A DNA stretch of 64,000 nucleotides, taken from the NCBI RefSeq assembly GCF_009901525.1, contig NZ_CP019288.1, positions 3,873,501 through 3,937,500 of the forward strand, written 5' to 3'. The notes under the pieces were generated by a model. The model did no database searches. It saw nothing but the letters and a program-made list of their open reading frames with translations, and was not told the DNA's origin. This DNA is from Kordia antarctica. GTDB taxonomy: Bacteria > Bacteroidota > Bacteroidia > Flavobacteriales > Flavobacteriaceae. Shown here in pieces: positions 12,024-61,355 of the stretch; positions within the stretch are counted from its first letter, which is position 1; each line of letters opens with the position of its first letter. The position numbers and the translations under genes are program-made.

Positions 12024-13472
12024 TTATCCTACCGAACCTTCTAATGAAATTTCTAATAATTTTTGTGCTTCTACGGCAAATTCCATTGGCAACTTGTTCA
12101 ACACATCTTTACTGAAACCGTTTACAATTAAGGCAATTGCTTTTTCGGTATTAATTCCACGTTGGTTGCAATAGAAAATTTGATCTTCTCCAATTTTACT
12201 TGTCGTTGCTTCATGTTCTATTTGTGCAGATTTGTTTTTTACTTCAATATATGGAAATGTGTGTGCGCCACATTTGTTTCCCATCAATAGAGAATCACAT
12301 TGAGAAAAGTTACGCGCATTATCTGCTTTTGAAGCAACTTGTACTAAACCTCTATAACTGTTTTGTGATTTTCCAGCAGAAATACCTTTGGAAATAATTG
12401 TACTTCTGGTATTTTTTCCAAGATGAATCATCTTAGTTCCTGTATCCGCTTGTTGATAATTGTTTGTGACAGCAATTGAGTAAAATTCCCCAACCGAATT
12501 GTCACCTTTCAAAATACAACTTGGATATTTCCATGTTACTGCCGAACCTGTTTCTACTTGTGTCCAAGAGATTTTCGCATTCTTTTCACACAATCCTCTT
12601 TTGGTTACAAAATTAAAAACACCACCTTTTCCTTCAGCGTTTCCTGGATACCAGTTTTGAACTGTAGAATATTTAATTTCTGCATCATCCATTGCAATGA
12701 GTTCTACAACAGCCGCATGCAATTGGTTTTCATCTCGCGATGGCGCTGTACAACCTTCTAAATAACTTACATAACTTCCTTCATCAGCAATTAAAAGCGT
12801 ACGCTCAAATTGACCTGTCCCAGCTTGATTGATTCGGAAATACGTTGATAATTCCATCGGACAACGAACGCCTTTTGGAATGTAACAGAATGAACCATCT
12901 GTGAAAACCGCCGAATTTAATGCCGCATAGAAGTTATCTTTGGTAGGAACAATAGTTCCCATATATTTTTTGACTAATTCAGGATGTTCTTGAATTGCTT
13001 CAGAGATAGGGCAGAAAATAATTCCTTTTTCTGCTAATGTCTTTTTGAATGTTGTTGCCACAGAAACTGAATCGACTACAATATCAATAGCGACACCTTG
13101 CATTTTTTTCTGCTCATCAATAGAGATTCCTAATTTTCTGTACATTTCCAATAACTCAGGATCTACATCGTCCATTGTTTTATTTGGATCTGCTTTTTTA
13201 GGAGCTGAATAATACGAGATTGCTTGAAAATCGGGTTTTGTGTAGTTTACATTTGCCCAAGCTGGTTCTTCCATTTCTGACCAAACTTTAAACGCTTCTA
13301 AACGCCAATCAGTCATCCATTTTGGTTCATTTTTCTTTTTAGAAATTGCTTTCACAATATCTTCATTAAGTCCAATGGGAAATGTATCACTTTCAATATC
13401 TGTATAAAACCCGTACTCGTATTCTTTCGTTTCGAGCTCTTTCTGTAATTCTTCTTCGGTATACTTACTCAT
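12024..13472 (-). CDS. sufB: Fe-S cluster assembly protein SufB
   Basis: Core scaffold subunit of SufBC2D, 482 residues. Characteristic segments are visible: [20 protein letters not shown], then [18 protein letters not shown], [20 protein letters not shown] region (here [13 protein letters not shown]) and the C-terminal [13 protein letters not shown]. The start is taken as the ATG at 13470-13472 ([10 protein letters not shown]); an upstream TTG at 13490 overlaps the inverted repeat of the preceding element and is less likely. It is separated from sufA by the four-helix-bundle element at 13482-13945. Confidence 0.96.
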
Positions 13473-13481
13473 TCTTTCTTT

Positions 13482-13945
13482 TTTGTTCAAAGTTTAAAGT
13501 TCAATATTTAAGGTTGCTTACTCTTGTATTTGCTACCTTTCATTTCACTTTTTGACAAATAATTTATAAATGCGCTTATTTTTTTACTTAATACAAGTGT
13601 TGCTGTTTGTAATGTTTCAAAAGTTTCACTTGTAATATATTTTCTATCTACAACTCTATACAATTGCGATCTTGTTTCGCCACAAGAAGCTTTTGCAATT
13701 GATAAGAATTGTATAAATTCTCTATTTCCATTTCGTTCAAATCCTTCGGCAATGTTGTCCATAACGGAACCTGAAGAAGAATTAATTTGATTGTAAAGCT
13801 TGTAGTCGGTTTTTAAATCACTTTGTTTTGCAATTTCAAAGATGTTTTGACAAAGTATTCGAGATAGTTTCCAAATTTCTAAATCTTCAAACTGTTTTAT
13901 AGTTGCCATTTAACCTTGAACTTTAAACATAGAACTTTGAACAAA
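13482..13945 (-). repeat. Intervening-sequence-like element: four-helix gene bounded by inverted repeats
   Basis: The 34-base ends 13482-13515 and 13912-13945 are imperfect inverted repeats: both contain TTTGTTCAAAG, TTTAAAGTTCAA and GGTT in the same order, with two offset six-base gaps. They tightly enclose the 13508-13909 gene and fill the whole space between the sufA stop and the sufB start. In the mRNA the arms could pair and put the gene in a loop, as in intervening sequences of 23S rRNA. Confidence 0.7.
13508..13909 (-). CDS. Four-helix bundle protein (23S rRNA intervening-sequence protein family)
   Basis: 133 residues, all helical, of the family encoded by 23S rRNA intervening sequences. 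Diagnostic segments: [20 protein letters not shown] (about 7-26), [20 protein letters not shown] (about 43-62) and [20 protein letters not shown] (about 66-85), then the last helix. Homologues form pentameric bundles with a basic surface; the biological role is not known. It sits inside the suf operon between sufA and sufB, bounded by inverted repeats. It ends on TAA within the left arm. Probably a selfish or hitchhiking element rather than an Fe-S factor. Confidence 0.88.
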
Positions 13946-40122: not shown

Positions 40123-41346
40123 TCATTTCACAAGCTTCGGCAACTGAATCTGTGGCATCGGCTCACACAACGTTTTCTCAACAATTTTAGTTCGCATGAG
40201 TTTTTTATCATTAAAATGCCTAGAAATATTTTGAATGATTTCGGTGTAATTATCACTTCCGTCTTCTTTTTGATGATAAAACACTTTAATAGAACGACAA
40301 TTTTCATGCTCAAAAATAGTGTTTAGTAATGTTCTATCGGATAAACCACAAGAATGTCCCATAATAACAACTTGAAACTTTTCGTAATCAACAAAACGTA
40401 AAACATCTTTATAATATGAGTTTTGCACATATTGAAACGATTTAAAATATTTTAAATATTCGTTATCGTCCATATCTTCAATCAACTTATAATCTTCATC
40501 CATTTCGTCTCCGAAGCCGAATACAATATTTTCATTGAGTTCTCCGTGAATGTGATTTATATCAATATTAAATTTGGTCAACTTTCTAGATTTTACGTAC
40601 TCATTAAAAGTAGGTGTATAGTTGAAATTCAATATTTGTGTTTCTGTTGAACTTGATTGAGTGTGTGATCTTGAATCAACTTCCATAAGTTTTTCAATTT
40701 CTGTAATATCTTCTTCAATTGAAAATTCCTCGGCTAACATCAAAATTCTATCTAAACTTTCATAAGGTTTCAAAATACGCAATAAACTATTACTATCTTC
40801 GATTGACCAATTATAAGCTTCAACCACATTCTTTTGCAGATATTTTTCTAACAATTGCTTTACTTGTTCAAACTCTCTGTGAAGTTTTAAAACGTCTTCT
40901 TTCTTATGACGAGCTAGTAGTTTTTCATCTTTACAGATGTTTTTTAATGCTTGATAATATTCATTCTCTACATCTACCCAATTTTGAATGGATTGTGTTT
41001 TGTTTAATTCTTTGAAAAATTGATTTTTGAATTTGAATAAAATCGTTTGATTATCATAATTCTGAGCTCGTCCTTTTTGAGAAAAACAATACTTATCTAA
41101 TTCATAAACACGAAAATTTCGCTTTAAATAATTATGAATATTATTTTCAAAATCTTTAAAATTTGTTACTTCTCTTTTGCTAAAATGATCTTGATTTAGT
41201 GGATGTATATAGACTAATTCTTTCACCAACTCATCTTCAAAATCATCCTTCAAATCACGCCAAAAAGCATCCATGAAATTGTTATACGATGTTGGCAATC
41301 CGTGTGCCAAATCAAATCCGTTTCCTGCAATGATTAGTTTGTTCAT
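40123..41346 (-). CDS. AbiH family protein (abortive infection type)
   Basis: 407 residues. The N-terminus MNKLIIAGNGFDLAHGLPTS then YNNFMDAFW is the AbiH hallmark (nucleotide-binding-like glycine motif). Further family segments are ILNFNYTPTFNEYV, HIHGELNENIVFGFGDEMDE and VVIMGHSCGLSDRTLLN. AbiH was found as a phage abortive-infection factor in Lactococcus; many homologues exist in Bacteroidota, with unproven roles. Its ATG overlaps the brnQ stop codon by four bases (ATGA), so it is translated as part of the brnQ operon. It ends close to a family A repeat shared with pepP. Confidence 0.88.
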   Translation of the reverse strand: MNKLIIAGNGFDLAHGLPTSYNNFMDAFWRDLKDDFEDELVKELVYIHPLNQDHFSKREVTNFKDFENNIHNYLKRNFRVYELDKYCFSQKGRAQNYDNQTILFKFKNQFFKELNKTQSIQNWVDVENEYYQALKNICKDEKLLARHKKEDVLKLHREFEQVKQLLEKYLQKNVVEAYNWSIEDSNSLLRILKPYESLDRILMLAEEFSIEEDITEIEKLMEVDSRSHTQSSSTETQILNFNYTPTFNEYVKSRKLTKFNIDINHIHGELNENIVFGFGDEMDEDYKLIEDMDDNEYLKYFKSFQYVQNSYYKDVLRFVDYEKFQVVIMGHSCGLSDRTLLNTIFEHENCRSIKVFYHQKEDGSDNYTEIIQNISRHFNDKKLMRTKIVEKTLCEPMPQIQLPKLVK

Positions 41347-42716
41347 GCTTGCTTATTTTTCTGAACCAAACCAACAACCAAAAACGTCAAAAACGAAGGT
41401 AAAACCCAACCGAAATCTGCTGTTCCTAACGAAATCGTTTCGCGGAAAGCTATTAAATAAGGATTTTCAGGAAAGAAATGCGTCAACATATCTAAAATAC
41501 CTCCTAACGAAATCGTTTCGCGGAAAGCGACTAATAAATTATTTGTTGGGAAGAAATGCGCCAACATATCTAAAAACCCAAAGATAAACGTTACCAAAAC
41601 TACAGCTCTAAAAACCAATGGTGTTGCGTATTTTGTTGGAGCAATGTTTAAAAAGATCAACACAATCGCAATTGGATAAATGAATTTCAACACAGGACCA
41701 GCAATCATATATATATAATGAAAGCCTAATTGTCCAATTATAATTCCGATCAAACATGCAATAATCGCCGTAATTGTATATGCATTTTTAGAATTGTTAA
41801 ATAATCCTTTAAAGTAATCGGCTGTTCCTGTGGTAATTCCGACAGCAGTCGTAAAACACGCCAAAGCCACTAAAACACTCAGAAAAGCAGTTCCGATATT
41901 TCCTAAAGTTGCCAAACTAATTCCACGAAGTAAGTTTGCGCGTTTCATATCATTACTCAAACTTAAATCTATATCAACTTCACTACTGAAATATGAACCG
42001 AGCAATATTAAACCTGCATACATAACGAACAATCCAAAACCTGCAATCCAACCCGATTTTGCAATGAGTTTTTTCTTTTCTTCGAAAGAAGTAATTCCTT
42101 TTAAGTTCAACGAAATGATAATAACGCCACCAATTACAATTGCGCCAATCGCGTCAAACGTTTGATAACCAACTTCTAATCCTGTGAATAAAGGCGTTGT
42201 AAATTCCGAAGCTTTTATCGCTTCATGCGGCATCAATAATCCGATTCCGATAATTGCCAATAAAATTAAAACGATCAAAGGCGTTAAGAATTTTCCAAGA
42301 AAGTTTAAAATTTTAGATCTATTCAACACAAAAACTAATACCAACGCAAAATACAGACTACTTGTCAACAATGCATTTGTGCCAAAGTTGGGAAATATAG
42401 AAATTTCGTGTGTTGCTGCGGCAGTTCTCGGTGACGGAATTGTTACTGAAATGATATAAATAATAATGCAAAATATACTGCTAAATAACGGCGAAACTTT
42501 CTTTCCGAAATCAAACATAGAACCTTGCAATCGCGCATGCGCCAAAATTCCAAAAATAGGAACTACAACGGCTGTAATCATAAATCCGAGCGTAACCCAA
42601 AACCATTGATCGGTTGCTTGATAGCCTAATAATGGCGGTAATAGTAAGTTTCCTGCTCCGAAAAACATAGAAAATAACGCAAAAGAAGTAATGAAAAGTT
42701 CTTTATTTTTTGACAT
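41343..42716 (-). CDS. brnQ: Branched-chain amino acid transporter BrnQ with an internal 26-residue duplication
   Basis: Sodium- or proton-coupled uptake of Leu, Ile and Val across the inner membrane. 457 residues, about twelve membrane helices, starting MSKNKELFITSFALFSMFFG with the conserved GAGNLLLPP. The start is the ATG at 42714-42716; it overlaps the end of the upstream gene by 14 bases. Near the C-terminus a 78-bp DNA segment is tandemly duplicated, giving LDMLAHFFPTNNLLVAFRET-ISLGGI followed by LDMLTHFFPENPYLIAFRET-ISLGTA. This adds a copy of the loop/helix before the last membrane segment. The frame is intact, so a functional protein is likely. Confidence 0.93.
   Translation of the reverse strand: MSKNKELFITSFALFSMFFGAGNLLLPPLLGYQATDQWFWVTLGFMITAVVVPIFGILAHARLQGSMFDFGKKVSPLFSSIFCIIIYIISVTIPSPRTAAATHEISIFPNFGTNALLTSSLYFALVLVFVLNRSKILNFLGKFLTPLIVLILLAIIGIGLLMPHEAIKASEFTTPLFTGLEVGYQTFDAIGAIVIGGVIIISLNLKGITSFEEKKKLIAKSGWIAGFGLFVMYAGLILLGSYFSSEVDIDLSLSNDMKRANLLRGISLATLGNIGTAFLSVLVALACFTTAVGITTGTADYFKGLFNNSKNAYTITAIIACLIGIIIGQLGFHYIYMIAGPVLKFIYPIAIVLIFLNIAPTKYATPLVFRAVVLVTFIFGFLDMLAHFFPTNNLLVAFRETISLGGILDMLTHFFPENPYLIAFRETISLGTADFGWVLPSFLTFLVVGLVQKNKQA
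41425..41580 (-). repeat. 78-bp tandem duplication inside brnQ
   Basis: Two copies, starting at 41425 and 41503, share CCTAACGAAATCGTTTCGCG and GGAAAGC at one end and GAAATGCG(T/C)CAACATATC at the other. The middle has diverged by several substitutions, so the duplication is not very recent. Confidence 0.85.
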
Positions 42717-43275
42717 GTGAAGTTTTTTTAATTCCAACAATTATCAAACTGACAATCACGTATAGAATTCCGAAAATAATATTGATAAATTTTATGGTAG
42801 CAGTTGCAAAAGCTAATGTTGACCAATGAGATTGCAAATCGCCATAAAAAAGTTGAAGCAGCGCAAAGTTTTCAACTGCGTCTAAAAAAACGGCGAAAAT
42901 GACCATTCTTAATAGTACAATTCCAAGTCTATAACCTAAATTTTCAGGCTGTTTCCACACAATTCTCGCCGTACGATGTATAATTAAACATAACAAAAAA
43001 CCATATGCAAACATAAAAATATAATCGAACCATAAACTCCATGCTGCGGAATTCATTGCACCTTCAGTTGCTTGCCAAGAATTCAAAATTTTGGTGGAAC
43101 AATCGAGCGTGGATGCCAATTCAAACGAAATAATTCCTAGTGGCGCAACATCATTTTTGAGTAATGTATCAAAATGAATCATGCAACTTGCTGCCAACAG
43201 AAAGATTAAAAAGGCTATTAATAAAAGCCTCTTTTCGGAAGCATTGGAAAGTTTTTTGAAAGGAGAAGTGAACAT
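42703..43275 (-). CDS. Membrane protein of unknown function, first gene of the brnQ operon
   Basis: 190 residues from the ATG at 43273-43275 (MFTSPFKKLSNASEKRL). Five or so hydrophobic segments: LLLIAFLIFLLAASCMI, YIFMFAYGFLLCLIIH, LGIVLLRMVIFAVFLDAVEN and a C-terminal pair ending VIVSLIIVGIKKTSH. No family is recognised. It overlaps the brnQ start and is divergently oriented to the 43324 hydrolase. A longer start at 43329 would overlap that gene's promoter and is less likely. Confidence 0.75.
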   Translation of the reverse strand: MFTSPFKKLSNASEKRLLLIAFLIFLLAASCMIHFDTLLKNDVAPLGIISFELASTLDCSTKILNSWQATEGAMNSAAWSLWFDYIFMFAYGFLLCLIIHRTARIVWKQPENLGYRLGIVLLRMVIFAVFLDAVENFALLQLFYGDLQSHWSTLAFATATIKFINIIFGILYVIVSLIIVGIKKTSHVKK

Positions 43276-49910: not shown

Positions 49911-51881
49911 ATGGACACTTCCCAAGAATTACTTATTGCTAACTTAGTATATCCTATTGTAAAAGATTTGGTATTACCTAAAATACAAGCTGTATTCAAA
50001 AAAAACCCTAAAATAAGTGTTAAGAAAGAAAGTGTTGAAGAACAATTAAATTTATACTTAACACAACGTTACACTAAGTTTTTGACTATTGATACATTGG
50101 TGTTTCCAAACATGCAAACAGCATTAGAAATATTATACCAACCATTGACTATAAGTTGTTGGGAAGGAGTTATTGGGGAAAACATTGCAATAAAAATTGA
50201 TAGTTATCCAAAAGAATTATTACCTAATTATGCGAGAGTTATCATAGAAGATACCGCAGGAATGGGAAAATCTACTATTACGAAAAAGCTGTTTCAGTCT
50301 ATTATTGAGCAAAAAGCAGGAATTCCTGTATTAATTGAATTAAGTCAAATAAAAAAGAAGAATAGTATTTTAAAGGAAATACAAAACCAAATGTCTCCTA
50401 TTGGAAAAAAACTAAGTCAAGACATACTGTTAAAATTAATAAATGAAGGTAATTTTATATTTCTGTTTGATGGCTATGATGAAATTGCGTTGGACGATAG
50501 AGATTTTACCATAAAAGAATTACATCGTTTTATAGAAAAAGCTGGAGACAACTATTTCTTAATTACATCAAGACCTGAAGATTCGTTGACTTCCTTTGGC
50601 GATTTTCAAAAATTTCATGTAAATCCACTCAAGAATGAAGAAGCGTATGAGCTTTTAGAAAAATATGATACGTATGGACACAATAAAATAGCAGAAAGTT
50701 TGATCGAACAGCTAGAAGAAAGTGATGATTCATTACAAGAATATCTTAGTAACCCTTTCTTGGTTTCTTTGTTGTATAAATCCTATGAATATAAAAAGGA
50801 TATTCCTGTAAAGAAAACTCAGTTCTATCAAAAAGTTTATGACGCACTATTTGAGGCACATGATTTATCAAAAGTAGGCTATCTGAAAAGAGAAAAATAC
50901 AGCAAATTGCATACAGATGATTTTGAACGTGTGTTAAGATATATAGGTTTTTTTACGTCAAAAGCTAATAAAATTGAATATGATAAAAATAGTATCATTC
51001 AATTTATAGAAAAAGCGAAAAGGCAAACCACAGATTTAAAATTTAAAGCGAGTGATTATTTAAAGGACTTATTAAAAACCGTTCCATTGTTTAAAAAAGA
51101 AGGGAATAATTATAAATGGGCACATAAATCATTACAAGATTATTTTGCTGCGAAGTTTATTTGGATTGATGCTAAAGAGAGTAGAATTGATATATTAATA
51201 AAAATCTTTCATGATGAACAAAACCAACGTTTTTACAATGTATTGTTACTCTATTTTGAATTGGATCGAAAAGGTTTTGAGCATACAATATTGAAATTGC
51301 TTTTAATTGAATTTAAAAAATTTATACATGATCATGATCATTATAATTATTTATCCAAAGAAGAACATAAAATAGAAAGAATCGAAAAAACCTTTGCAAA
51401 AGAGTCAATAGTTATAATGATATCAAAAGCTAGTGATTATAAAAAAGGTGCTTCTGATGTATATCGTAAATACGTGAAAAAAACAAATAAATTGAATTCA
51501 TTCACAGAAGATCAATCAGCACAACTTTATAAATCACAAAATCCAAACAGATATATTTTTACAGTTATTACATATAACATATACTTGGCAGTGATATTAA
51601 GGTTGATAAATGAAGTTTACCCTAACTTGACACGAAAACATTTTTCTACTGAATATATTTCTACGATTTGTAAAATAAGAGAAGGTAATATATATACTTT
51701 AGACGATAAAAGATCAAATGTTTTGAATAAAGAAGAAAACTTTAAGTTTGTTAATGATGTTATTGGAAACTCTAACTCTAGGCGTAGTTTAAAATATTAT
51801 GAATGTTTATCTAAATTAAAAGAACTAGAAAAAAACGATTCCGAAGCAGAGAAAAATGAATTGTTAGATTGGAAATACTAA
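49911..51881 (+). CDS. NACHT-domain STAND NTPase, probable anti-phage sensor
   Basis: 656 residues, no signal peptide. N-terminal helical region (about 1-100, LIANLVYPIVKDLVLPKIQA), NACHT NTPase with Walker A EDTAGMGKST (113-122), Walker B FIFLFDGYDEI (182-192) and sensor FLITSRPEDS (about 216-225). A winged-helix end follows with WAHKSLQDYFAAKFIW (about 402-417), then an uncharacterised C-terminal region (about 420-656). No known effector domain (nuclease, TIR, protease) is visible at either end. Bacterial NACHT proteins of this size defend against phages. The gene stands alone, has higher AT content than its neighbours, and is bracketed by family C repeats. Confidence 0.88.
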   Translation: MDTSQELLIANLVYPIVKDLVLPKIQAVFKKNPKISVKKESVEEQLNLYLTQRYTKFLTIDTLVFPNMQTALEILYQPLTISCWEGVIGENIAIKIDSYPKELLPNYARVIIEDTAGMGKSTITKKLFQSIIEQKAGIPVLIELSQIKKKNSILKEIQNQMSPIGKKLSQDILLKLINEGNFIFLFDGYDEIALDDRDFTIKELHRFIEKAGDNYFLITSRPEDSLTSFGDFQKFHVNPLKNEEAYELLEKYDTYGHNKIAESLIEQLEESDDSLQEYLSNPFLVSLLYKSYEYKKDIPVKKTQFYQKVYDALFEAHDLSKVGYLKREKYSKLHTDDFERVLRYIGFFTSKANKIEYDKNSIIQFIEKAKRQTTDLKFKASDYLKDLLKTVPLFKKEGNNYKWAHKSLQDYFAAKFIWIDAKESRIDILIKIFHDEQNQRFYNVLLLYFELDRKGFEHTILKLLLIEFKKFIHDHDHYNYLSKEEHKIERIEKTFAKESIVIMISKASDYKKGASDVYRKYVKKTNKLNSFTEDQSAQLYKSQNPNRYIFTVITYNIYLAVILRLINEVYPNLTRKHFSTEYISTICKIREGNIYTLDDKRSNVLNKEENFKFVNDVIGNSNSRRSLKYYECLSKLKELEKNDSEAEKNELLDWKY

Positions 51882-56466: not shown

Positions 56467-58479
56467 ATGGCTTTAGATTCTAAAACACCAAAAGGTCCAA
56501 TTGCAGACAAATGGACTAATTATAAAAATCACATTGACTTAGTAAACCCAGCAAACAAACGTAATATTGATATTATCGTTGTTGGAACTGGATTGGCAGG
56601 TGGTTCTGCAGCAGCTACTTTAGCAGAGCTTGGATATAATGTAAAAGCATTCTGTTTTCAAGATTCTCCGCGTCGTGCGCACTCAATTGCAGCACAAGGA
56701 GGAATCAACGCTGCAAAAAATTATCAAGGAGACGGAGATTCAACATATAGATTATTTTATGATACCGTAAAAGGTGGCGATTATCGTTCGCGAGAAGCTA
56801 ATGTATATCGTTTGGCTGAGGTTTCTGCAAACATCATTGACCAATGTGTAGCACAAGGAGTTCCTTTTGCACGTGATTATGGAGGCTTGTTAGATAACCG
56901 TTCGTTTGGTGGCGTTTTGGTATCCAGAACATTTTATGCCGCAGGACAAACAGGACAACAATTATTACTTGGAGCGTATTCTGCTATGAACCGTCAAATT
57001 GGTCGTGGTAAAATCAAAATGTACAATCGTCATGAAATGTTAGACGTTGTTAAGGTTGATGGAAAAGCGCGTGGAATTATAACACGTAACCTTATTACTG
57101 GAGAAGTTGAACGTCATTCGGCACATGCTGTAGTTCTTGGAACTGGTGGTTATGGTAACGTATTCTTCTTATCCACAAACGCAATGGGAAGTAATGTAAC
57201 AGCAGCTTGGAAAGCACACAAACGTGGCGCATACTTTGCAAATCCTTGTTACACACAAATTCACCCAACATGTATTCCTGTTTCGGGAGATCATCAATCT
57301 AAATTAACATTGATGTCTGAGTCTTTACGGAATGATGGACGTATTTGGGTTCCAAAACACATGAAAGATGTGGAAGCTATAAAAGCAGGAACTTTAAAAC
57401 CTAAAGATTTAGCAGAAGCAGATAGAGATTATTACCTAGAACGTCGTTATCCAGCCTTTGGAAACTTAGTTCCTCGTGATGTAGCATCTCGTGCAGCAAA
57501 AGAACGTTGCGATGCTGGTTACGGAGTTAATGCAACTGGTGAAGCAGTATTTTTAGATTTTGCTTCCGCAATACAACGCTACGGAAAAGAAACTGCGCAT
57601 GTAAAAGGATTGGATGAAAATGATGCAGCTTTAGTTAAAAAATTAGGACAAGAAGTCGTAAAAAATAAATACGGAAACTTATTCCAAATGTATGAGAAGA
57701 TCGTAGATCAAGATCCATACAATACACCAATGATGATTTATCCAGCGGTTCACTATACAATGGGTGGAATTTGGGTGGATTATAACCTAATGACAACCGT
57801 TCCTGGTTTATATTGTATTGGTGAAGCAAACTTCTCCGATCACGGTGCAAACCGATTAGGAGCTTCTGCTTTAATGCAAGGTTTGGCAGATGGATATTTC
57901 GTATTGCCATATACAATTGGTGATTATTTATCCGATGATATTCGTACAGGAACAATTTCAACAGATTCAAAAGAATTTGAAGAAGCTGAAAAAGAAGTAA
58001 AAGAGAAACTAAACTTTTTTGTTACCAATGAAGGAAAACATTCTGTAGATTATTTCCATAAGAAATTAGGGAAAATCATGTGGAATAAAGTTGGAATGTC
58101 TCGTAATGCACAAGGATTAACAGAAGCTATTGCTGAAATAAAAGCACTTCGTGAGCAATTCTGGAAAGAAGTGAAAGTTCCTGGAACAAACGAAGAATAC
58201 AACGAAGAATTAGCAAAAGCTGGTCGTGTAGCAGATTTCTTAGAATTAGGAGAATTATTTGCTAAAGATGCTTTACAAAGAGAAGAATCTTGTGGAGGTC
58301 ACTTCAGAGAAGAATCCGTAGAACTAGATGGAGAACAAAAAGGAGAAGCAAAACGTAACGATAAAGACTTTGCGTATGTATCTGCTTGGGAATACAAAGG
58401 AGAACCTAGTGATGCAGTATTGCACAAAGAAGAATTAGAATTCAAGGATATTGAATTAAAACAAAGAAGTTATAAATAA
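56467..58479 (+). CDS. sdhA: Succinate dehydrogenase flavoprotein subunit
   Basis: 670 residues. Covalent FAD site and dinucleotide fold at the N-terminus ([20 protein letters not shown], with the flavin-linking [12 protein letters not shown], His near 76), substrate-binding HPTCIP and the catalytic [18 protein letters not shown] then GAVF-like VFLDFA, the NHGANRLGA-type end [15 protein letters not shown]. The C-terminal domain ends KQRSYK. Oxidises succinate to fumarate in the citric acid cycle. It is followed, instead of sdhB, by three genes of other type; no terminator is seen behind it. Confidence 0.97.
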
Positions 58480-58509
58480 CATATTCAACTAACTAAAACT
58501 AAAAATACG

Positions 58510-58869
58510 ATGAACAATCTTGTAAAATTAAAATTAAAAAGAATCGATCCTGTAAAATATGCAGTAGTAGCAACAATAGTATACCTTATACTTTTACTGA
58601 TTATCTATGTGCCAATAATACTATTATTATCATTAGTTGGTGGAGCTTCTGATCTGTCAGCAGGAGCTGCAGTATTAGGCGGAGGACTTTTTGCAATAAT
58701 ACTTATGGTAATTTTTGCTGGAATAATAGTTTTCATTATAACGCTTATTGCATGTGCAATTTTAAATTTCGTTTTAAGAAAAACAGGTGGTATAGATATT
58801 GATTTTGAACAAGCAGGTTTGGACATTTCTCAAATTGGTGGGACACAACAGCCTAAGTTAAATCAATAA
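58510..58869 (+). CDS. Small membrane protein, DUF3566-like layout (119 aa)
   Basis: N-terminal KLKLKRIDPVKYAVVAT, then two or three hydrophobic segments (VYLILLLIIYVPIILLLSLV; GGGLFAIILMVIFAGIIVFI; ITLIACAILNFVLRKTGG) and a short acidic tail (DIDFEQAGLDISQIG). The order (basic start with a DP motif, hydrophobic pair, NFVLRxTGGIDIDFE end) resembles DUF3566 proteins. Role unknown. It lies 30 bases after sdhA and 45 bases before the ATPase gene. Whether it belongs to the sdh operon or to the inserted module is open. Confidence 0.72.
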   Translation: MNNLVKLKLKRIDPVKYAVVATIVYLILLLIIYVPIILLLSLVGGASDLSAGAAVLGGGLFAIILMVIFAGIIVFIITLIACAILNFVLRKTGGIDIDFEQAGLDISQIGGTQQPKLNQ

Positions 58870-58914
58870 AAAATTGTTGTGAATTCAACGGCTCAATACT
58901 CGTAATCTACAAAG

Positions 58915-60165
58915 ATGAAAGAGAAGCTTATCATTAAAAACTTTGGTCCTATTAAATCTGTTGATTTAGATTTAGGAAAAATCAATGTGCTTATTGGTGA
59001 GCAAGCTACAGGAAAAAGTACCATTGCTAAGGTGTTGAGTATTTGTAGGTATTTTTCTTATATAGTAAATTATTCAATAGATATTGAAAGTCAACATATC
59101 TTTCATAACAACGAACAATTTTATAAAGGATTAAAAGATTGGGGAATTGATGAGTATCTTCAAGATGCATCTGAATTTTTTTATGAAAATGAATTGTATA
59201 CATTCGAATTTAAAAATAAATTAATTACAGAGTTTGAAACTGTAACTACAACAGATGATCTTAAAAAAGAATACTATCAAACAGAAACAAGAATACATTC
59301 AAACTCAACTAATTTCACGAAACTTTTAAATGAGCTAGAAAGCCTCAAAAAAGATGAAGAAGTAAGTGATAAAGTGTCAGAAACTGAAATTTTTTATGCA
59401 AGTGGATGGACTCCAAACGAGAATTTTTATAGATTAAATGTAAAAAAGGTAATGGATAACCCGCTATTCATTCCTGCAGAACGAGGTTTTCAGTCCGTAT
59501 CAGTTAGTAAAGACTCACTTCTGTCAACTGCAATATTAGATGAACTAGCTAAAATTAATAGAATAGTAAGAGAGTATCGGACAGACATAGAAATTAAACC
59601 TTTAAGCTTAATTTTTAGAAATGAAAATGGATTAAGTAAAGTAAAAAAGATAGACACTAATGATTTTCATTATTTACATACTGGCGCAAGCGGTTATCAA
59701 TCCACTATACCAACTTTCTTAGCTATAAAGTATTACAGTGAAATTGAAAAACGAAAAAGAACAATCACAGTTGAAGAACCTGAGCTTAATCTATTTCCCA
59801 AAACGCAAAAAAAATTAGTTGAATTCTTTATAGAATCAATTAATCAGTCTAATAATAAATTCATTTTACCAACGCATAGTCCATACATCTTAACAACATT
59901 AAGTAACTTGATTTATGCACATAAAGTTGGTACAACAGATAATGGAAAGTTTGAAAAAGAAGTAAATGAAATCATTTCAAAAAAAGCATGGATTGATGTA
60001 AATGATATTTCTGTCTACTTTTTAAACAATGGGCAAGCTAAAGATTTAGTAGATGTTAAAGAATGCTTAATCAACTTAGATGATTTAGATAATGTATCAG
60101 AAACTATTAATAGTGAATTTGATGAATTGTTGAACATCGAAATGAAAAGCATTTCAGATGAATAA
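58915..60165 (+). CDS. AAA/ABC-type ATPase of the OLD/RecF-like class, within the sdh operon
   Basis: 416 residues. Walker A GEQATGKST (28-36) follows LIIKNFGPIKSVDLDLGKIN, the start of an ATPase of the overcoming-lysogenization-defect/AAA_15 type. The middle (about 40-250) is helical and rich in Glu and Lys (coiled-coil-like). ABC-type signature region TGASGYQS (256-263), Walker B ITVEEPELNLF (284-294) and switch His in LPTHSPYIL (319-327). There is no TOPRIM tail. It overlaps the next gene by eight bases. Such ATPases pair with a nuclease in several anti-phage systems; by context this is a candidate defence ATPase. It interrupts sdhA-sdhB. Confidence 0.88.
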   Translation: MKEKLIIKNFGPIKSVDLDLGKINVLIGEQATGKSTIAKVLSICRYFSYIVNYSIDIESQHIFHNNEQFYKGLKDWGIDEYLQDASEFFYENELYTFEFKNKLITEFETVTTTDDLKKEYYQTETRIHSNSTNFTKLLNELESLKKDEEVSDKVSETEIFYASGWTPNENFYRLNVKKVMDNPLFIPAERGFQSVSVSKDSLLSTAILDELAKINRIVREYRTDIEIKPLSLIFRNENGLSKVKKIDTNDFHYLHTGASGYQSTIPTFLAIKYYSEIEKRKRTITVEEPELNLFPKTQKKLVEFFIESINQSNNKFILPTHSPYILTTLSNLIYAHKVGTTDNGKFEKEVNEIISKKAWIDVNDISVYFLNNGQAKDLVDVKECLINLDDLDNVSETINSEFDELLNIEMKSISDE

Positions 60166-60592
60166 AGAAATAATTGACAATTGCAAAGAAACAGTTACAG
60201 ATAGAAACATTGTTTTAAGAGAAAAGAAAAGTATTTATAGAGCAATAAACAGAACCAACGAAAGTATATTAATATATAAAGTAGATGGTTGTATTTACAA
60301 ACCAAGTAATATTGAAACAAGATGTGATTATTTATTAAATGCAAATCAAAAATTATACTTTATAGAACTAAAAGGTTCTAATGTTCAAAAAGGATTAAGG
60401 CAAGTATTGATTTCAATTAATAATTTAGTAAAACATCTCAATAATAGTTCTGTAAATGCAAGAATAATTACAACAAGAGGTACAAAACCAAAAAGGTTAA
60501 ATACTTATAAAGAGTACAGAGATTTAATAAAGCTAATAGGAAAAGAAGGTATTGTGTTAAGTAATTCTCCTTTTCAAGAACATATAACTTAA
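60158..60592 (+). CDS. Small PD-(D/E)XK-like nuclease candidate, partner of the ATPase
   Basis: 144 residues, not matched to a named family. The central segment [20 protein letters not shown] has the D-x12-E-x-K pattern (Asp57, Glu70, Lys72) of PD-(D/E)XK nucleases, followed by VQKGLRQVL (Gln82), which fits the alpha-helix carrying a conserved Gln in many such enzymes. A basic patch [15 protein letters not shown] follows at 107-121. It overlaps the ATPase stop codon by eight bases, so the two are translated together. No signal peptide. The nuclease call rests on motif spacing alone. It ends only 13 bases before sdhB. Confidence 0.7.
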
Positions 60593-60605
60593 AAATAGCA
60601 AAGCT

Positions 60606-61355
60606 ATGAATTTAACGTTAAAAATTTGGCGTCAAAAAAACGCTAACGATAAAGGAAAAATGGTTGATTACAAAGTCAATGATATTTCTCCTGATATGTC
60701 TTTCCTTGAAATGTTAGATGTTTTAAACGAACAACTCATAAACAATGGAGGCGAAGAACCAGTAGCGTTCGATCACGATTGTCGTGAAGGAATCTGCGGA
60801 TCATGTTCACTTTATATCAATGGAGAAGCGCATGGACCAGATCGTGGAGTTACTACATGTCAATTACACATGCGTATGTTTAAAGATGGCGATACTATTT
60901 ACATAGAGCCATTCAGAGCAAAAGCATTTCCAGTAATCAAAGATTTAATTGTAGATAGAGGCTCTTTTGATCGTATTCAGCATGCGGGAGGATTTATTTC
61001 TGTAAATACCTCTGGGAATACCATTGATGCCAATGCAACTCCTGTAAACAAACACGATGCAGATACGGCTTTTGATGCCGCAACATGTATTGGTTGTGGA
61101 GCTTGTGTAGCAAGTTGTAAAAACTCTAGTGCAATGTTATTCGTTTCGGCAAAAGTATCGCAATTTGCATTATTGCCACAAGGACAAGTAGAAGCAACAG
61201 ATCGTGTATTAAATATGGTAAAACAGATGGACGACGAAGGATTCGGAAACTGTACCAACACTGGAGCTTGCGAAGTAGAATGCCCGAAAGGAATTTCGCT
61301 TGAAAATATTGCACGTATGAATCGTGAATACTTGTCAGCATCTTTCAAAGGATAA
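60606..61355 (+). CDS. sdhB: Succinate dehydrogenase iron-sulfur subunit
   Basis: 249 residues. Plant-ferredoxin-like [2Fe-2S] domain with [20 protein letters not shown] and TTCQLH (about 59-83), then [15 protein letters not shown] (about 162-176) and [15 protein letters not shown] (about 217-231) for the [4Fe-4S] and [3Fe-4S] clusters. Passes electrons from FAD to the quinone site. It is separated from sdhA by 2126 bases containing three other genes. It probably still depends on the sdh promoter, as none of its own was found just upstream. Confidence 0.97.

Follow-up and report, generated by a model that had tools for sequence, protein, structure and literature searches.

A probable WonAB-like abortive-infection cassette carried between sdhA and sdhB in Kordia antarctica

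The WonAB system of the Vibrio cholerae WASA-1 prophage couples an OLD-type ABC ATPase, WonA, to a PD-(D/E)xK protein, WonB (PMC12137116). It aborts infection by phage ICP1 and is also active against Vequintavirinae in Escherichia coli (PMC12137116; also PMC12409358). Defence requires K34, R182, E300 and H333 of WonA and K71 of WonB; the toxicity of WonB requires active WonA, and tRNA or rRNA has been proposed as its target (PMC12137116). WonAB has been assigned to a wider, uncharacterised family in which ABC-ATPase sensors are paired with nucleases (PMC12137116). A further point of reference is provided by the PDCs, which stem from a guilt-by-embedding survey and are mostly without validation (PMC12988326). 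For one of these, the PADLOC-DB 2.0.0 candidate PDC-M29, we found no papers.

We analyzed a window of 64,000 nucleotides (3873501-3937500) from the 5.5 Mb single-contig genome of Kordia antarctica, in which ORFs bear out the preliminary description of sdhC, sdhA and sdhB as intact with 2126 bp between sdhA and sdhB (sdhA ends at 58479 and sdhB starts at 60606, leaving a gap at 58480-60605). That description had placed a two-gene pair in the gap, which stands, and had missed a third gene, coding for a 119-aa membrane protein. The gap thus contains three ORFs, listed here with their flanks:

56467-58479, + strand: sdhA, the upstream flank (ORF; 92% identity to the closest genus-mates)
58510-58869, + strand: 119-aa membrane protein (homologues in the sdhA-sdhB gap of other genera)
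58915-60165, + strand: OLD-type ABC/AAA_15 ATPase of 416 aa, PDC-M29A, WonA-like (Pfam AAA_15, PADLOC PDC-M29A, invariant residues)
60158-60592, + strand: small probable PD-(D/E)XK nuclease of 144 aa, PDC-M29B, WonB-like (PADLOC PDC-M29B, family alignment, hhalign)
60606-61355, + strand: sdhB, the downstream flank (ORF; found in 149/149 genomes of the family sample)

The genes for the ATPase and the 144-aa protein overlap by 8 bases, and their GC content is 28.1% and 23.9%, whereas sdhA and sdhB have 37.6% and 38.3%. A promoter and terminator scan of the sdhA-sdhB interval, of a kind that covers Bacteroidota promoters poorly, returned nothing above chance. Just 5' of the ATPase start, GCTCAATACT at 58891-58900 is similar to the leader found ahead of sdhB in several genus-mates; insertion of the cassette may have taken place between this leader and sdhB.

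To place the gap in context, we compared the sdhA-sdhB spacing in the genus and, with 140 further genera represented by a single genome each, across the family. The small protein is absent from all 10 other genomes of the genus, in which the two genes lie 10 to ~80 bp apart, with one exception of 493 bp that holds an ORF of the four-helix-bundle type. The gap is at most 117 bp in 121 of the 140 genera and longer in the other 19, where it contains a membrane protein of the 119-aa type (6 genera), four-helix-bundle ORFs resembling 23S rRNA-IVP (~10 genera, as judged visually), isolated other ORFs or nothing that is clearly an ORF; the ATPase pair was found in none of the gaps surveyed across these genera. 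The varied ORFs of the long gaps point to the sdhA-sdhB gap as a slot that takes passengers, and the absence of the pair from this locus in the 10 genus-mates and the 140 other genera indicates that it is not part of SDH. This spacing survey upholds the earlier claim that the pair is inserted. Four-helix-bundle ORFs (23S rRNA-IVP-like, by eye) were seen in the gap at L033, L082, L084, L097, L129, L148, L161, L164, L168, L177 and L195, and a gap of 2554 bp (L155) holds an ORF of 148 aa that looks glyoxalase-like, another of 530 aa and a membrane protein of the 119-aa type. The 119-aa membrane protein itself is an older resident of the gap in several genera: its homologues sit there in 6 of the 140 genera, each without the ATPase pair. 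Its gene was considered as a third component of the cassette and rejected, because it occurs without the pair in those 6 genera and is missing from the two other pairs found in the sdh slot (see below).

The larger protein of the pair carries the motifs GEQATGKST, VEEPEL and THSP, as first described, and has the layout of an ABC ATPase with Walker A K34, R190, Walker B E287/E288 and H-loop H321, a variable insert at about residues 46-185 and a C-terminal extension at about residues 324-416. K34, R190, E288 and H321 are invariant in 14 relatives. It matches Pfam AAA_15 (E 2.6e-19), and its best match among 77 PADLOC families is PDC-M29A (E 3.3e-42), followed by lower matches to AriA (E 2.5e-22), PD-T4-4_A (E 7.7e-20), PtuA-type proteins (E 7e-11) and GajA; profile searches also returned weak matches to RecF and RecN. 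PtuA chains are among the closest solved structures, and an AlphaFold model from a two-row alignment, with a pLDDT of 29, is too poor to be relied on. Within slots (see below) the insert is only 24-60% identical, against 75-98% for the first 45 residues; in the lysS slot, the ATPase without the insert is 84-98% identical and the insert 24-56%. Such hypervariability within a slot is as expected of a sensor under pressure.

The 144-aa protein is a probable PD-(D/E)XK nuclease, a fold assignment that draws on weak profile matches and a conserved residue pattern; it agrees with the original reading of the pair as an ATPase with a PD-(D/E)XK-like partner. The pattern D57-x12-E70-x-K72 with a downstream Gln82, already noted in the preliminary description, is real and is conserved in a family of 20 members, in which C9, C56, E70 and K72 are invariant and D43 and C45 almost so; D or E occupies position 57 throughout, and Gln82 is present in most. 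The conserved cysteines 9, 45 and 56, two of them invariant, make a metal site possible. There is no Pfam match to the protein itself, and in PADLOC it matches PDC-M29B (E 2.9e-9 and 3.9e-5; the match spans only residues 22-97 of 144) and PDC-M56B (4.6e-4). All 14 relatives scanned match PDC-M29B, and single family members show weak matches to HSDR_N_2, NERD, DUF2726 and SfsA (Cas4 in PADLOC), mixed with weak matches to unrelated families. Comparison by hhalign of the family with HSDR_N_2 gave an E-value of 0.0056 (for a single comparison) and a score of 23, with the D, ExK and Q in register; 20 column shuffles used as a control reached at most 16.5. AlphaFold, given an alignment of two sequences, returned a pLDDT of 40, too low for a usable model, and searching PDB sequences with the nuclease or its profile gave no credible match. 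Searches of Pfam, PADLOC and NCBIfam gave neither a TOPRIM/DUF4435 (AriB) match nor a PtuB or HNH match, in keeping with the earlier statement that the partner differs from those of PARIS and Septu.

The pair is patchily distributed, occurring in 8 of 397 Flavobacteriaceae genomes. Two further copies lie in the sdhA-sdhB gap: one in a Flavobacteriaceae MAG (L040, JAKITD010000024.1), with 67% identity in the ATPase and 61-62% in the nuclease, and one in a genome of another genus (L050, G598). The dN/dS values of the pair are 0.16 and 0.31, well under 1 with synonymous sites near saturation, and by this measure it is under purifying selection. These values, the matches to a known family and the relative in the same gap indicate that both ORFs are real and beyond chance. 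The preliminary description had proposed a search outside sdh loci, and there the pair is found directly behind lysS (L055, L056, L058; in L066 it lies 325 bp behind lysS), metG (L053, L054), dnaK (L059) and a glycosyltransferase gene (L061, L062, also L013), as well as on plasmids. These slot kin, and those behind sdhA, run in the same direction as the housekeeping gene and mostly start 10-110 bp downstream of it, which strengthens the earlier suggestion that expression of the pair is tied to the operon and makes co-transcription plausible. Other copies (L049, L051, L057, L060, L063, L064, L065) are oriented divergently to the neighbouring gene or lie at a greater distance from it.

The ATPase tree unites the three sdh-slot copies in a single clade (100/100) and likewise gives one clade each for the copies at lysS, metG, corA and the glycosyltransferase gene; on this tree, each ATPase clade keeps its own slot. 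Such fidelity may reflect an old insertion followed by many losses, or exchange through short flanks. Transfer of the cassette together with long sdh flanks was considered and is not supported: the identity of sdhA and sdhB to those of the MAG shows no increase near the junction, and it is a genus-mate that has the most similar flanks. Kin are also seen on mobile DNA, with a Persicobacter plasmid (L224) carrying the pair flanked by genes for a GmrSD restriction enzyme and an N6/N4 DNA methylase, a Bacteroides plasmid carrying it within a glycosyltransferase operon, and a further family copy on a gut phage-like contig; scans of viral contigs with the ATPase found no relatives. Microcystis phage Mic1 (L223:2495-3733) encodes an ATPase 42.8% identical to that of one glycosyltransferase-slot copy (L061), without a nuclease and adjoining a DNA adenine methylase; it may be an orphan, or may act as a decoy to counter such systems.

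The copy in the other genus (L050) departs from the remaining sdh-slot copies in its nuclease. Its ATPase shares 56-61% identity with those of the other two sdh-slot copies, and its nuclease only 16-17% with theirs; this nuclease groups with the lysS/metG class (split 97/95), and the p-AU of 0.0005 rejects a tree uniting the three sdh-slot nucleases. The presence of a different nuclease class within the sdh-slot ATPase clade means that the nuclease was probably exchanged in place. Along its ATPase, residues 1-280 are sdh-like (45-88%, vs 6-61% to others), and residues 316-385 are more lysS-like (54-62% vs 34-45%), a pattern suggestive of a joint exchange of nuclease and C-terminal extension; a tree of the extension alone, a short region, gave p-AU values of 0.30 and 0.53. 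Across 19 pairs, nuclease similarity tracks the C-terminal extension (partial r 0.47, 0/2000 permutations, in a test inflated by the relatedness of the rows), as against partial r values of 0.11 for the ATPase core and 0.16 for the insert. Such covariation is in line with the model for WonAB, where the extension serves as the docking site of the nuclease.

Together, these observations lead us to regard the pair as probably a WonAB-like abortive-infection cassette that is a passenger in the sdh operon. The anti-phage reading draws on the PDC-M29A/B matches, the counterparts of the WonA residues, the kin in a restriction locus, on plasmids and on a phage-like contig, the patchy distribution, the low GC, the variable insert, the covariation and the purifying selection; the preliminary proposal of a defence module is likewise supported as a probable one. 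In the mechanism that we envisage, the pair would be read from the sdhCAB transcript. By analogy with the modelling of WonAB, and in line with the covariation, the ATPase would dimerise through its ATP sites and hold the nuclease on its C-terminal extension. A signal made by the phage, probably met by the variable insert, would change the ATPase, upon which the nuclease would cut a needed host nucleic acid, perhaps the tRNA or rRNA proposed for WonB, and growth would be halted before phage production.

Three other readings were weighed. Two overlapping genes, with a small probable nuclease and a larger partner, distributed patchily and present on plasmids, would also suit a toxin-antitoxin addiction module, in which the ATPase would hold the nuclease in check and the pair would be maintained through the death of cells that have lost it, not through protection from phage; we consider this unlikely, as the dependence of WonB toxicity on active WonA (PMC12137116) speaks against a simple antitoxin role, and a hypervariable insert is not expected of an antitoxin. 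It is more improbable still that the pair is a horizontally spread OLD/RecF-type unit of nucleic-acid repair or maintenance without an anti-phage role: the weak RecF and RecN matches of the ATPase would agree with this, but the closest profiles are those of defence candidates and a kin pair lies inside a restriction locus. An accessory role in respiration, in which the pair would owe its place in the sdh operon to a part in, for instance, SDH assembly or quality control, is suggested by its position between sdhA and sdhB in three Flavobacteriaceae genomes and is already disfavored to the point of being barely credible, given the gaps without it in the 10 genus-mates and 140 other genera, the relatives beside lysS, metG, dnaK or corA or on plasmids, and the retention of the nuclease active-site pattern.

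In the window, no tight cluster of defence genes surrounds the probable cassette. A NACHT protein with a C-terminal SNaCT5 domain (PF22711, E 5.7e-46), of the bacterial NLR-like defence kind, is encoded 7 kb upstream of it (49911-51881, + strand), and an AbiH-family protein (PF14253, E 5.8e-27) 18 kb away (40123-41346, - strand). With a 4-base overlap between its start and the end of a gene for a branched-chain amino acid transporter (41343-42740), the AbiH gene is a further defence candidate placed immediately behind a housekeeping gene. Next to the suf genes (sufB-like ORF, 12024-13490) lies a gene for a 23S_rRNA_IVP protein (PF05635, E 1.6e-30; 13508-13909, - strand); like the sdhA-sdhB gaps, suf, another Fe-S housekeeping operon, thus has a passenger of the 23S_rRNA_IVP kind.

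More broadly, we tentatively raise the possibility, somewhat less likely than not, of a class of immune cassettes living as passengers inside or directly behind housekeeping genes (sdhA, lysS, metG, dnaK), in which ATPase clades stay faithful to their slots in different species or genera while the nuclease is exchanged in place along with the ATPase extension on which it docks; such a life would combine constitutive expression with updating by recombination at the slot. What is new here is the slot-faithful passenger life in housekeeping operons and the change of nuclease at a fixed slot. Most searches for defence genes target islands and mobile elements; if the proposal is true, this ATPase-nuclease family hides singly in core operons, where the neighbourhood gives no hint, and its slot-faithful clades would let the evolution of sensor, motor and effector be watched separately. 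Moreover, the different nuclease in one sdh-slot copy, together with the covariation, offers a direct test of sensor-effector matching of the WonAB kind.

Among known systems, PARIS (AriA/AriB) likewise has an AAA_15/OLD-type ATPase in AriA, but its partner is a TOPRIM protein and not a PD-(D/E)xK one; in Septu and retron-Ec78 (PtuA/PtuB), the PtuA-type ATPase matches that of the window, whereas the partner is an HNH nuclease. The OLD-ABC ATPase + Novel REase operons and PD-T4-4 (both named in PMC12137116) share gene order and domain kinds with the window pair; PDC-M29A is far closer than PD-T4-4 to the window ATPase, and PD-T4-4 differs in its inserts and C-terminal extension (PMC12137116). 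PDC-M29 likewise consists of two genes, an ATPase followed by a small partner, and is the best PADLOC match for both window proteins; by these profile matches the pair is a divergent member of this candidate family, its nuclease being a short divergent form matched over the middle only. The preliminary suggestion that the pair may be undescribed therefore does not hold, since PADLOC already includes PDC-M29, and WonAB, of the same anatomy, protects against phages (PMC12137116). Compared by published anatomy, WonAB is, like the window pair, a two-gene operon of an OLD-type ABC ATPase with a C-terminal extension and a PD-(D/E)xK partner, the latter a probable one in the window pair. By published positions, WonA K34, R182, E300 and H333 correspond to K34, R190, E288 and H321 of the window ATPase, with an E-to-H spacing of 33 in both, and the catalytic K71 of WonB corresponds to K72 of the window nuclease. 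The two differ in their setting: WonAB is borne by a prophage, whereas the window pair is a passenger of a housekeeping operon.
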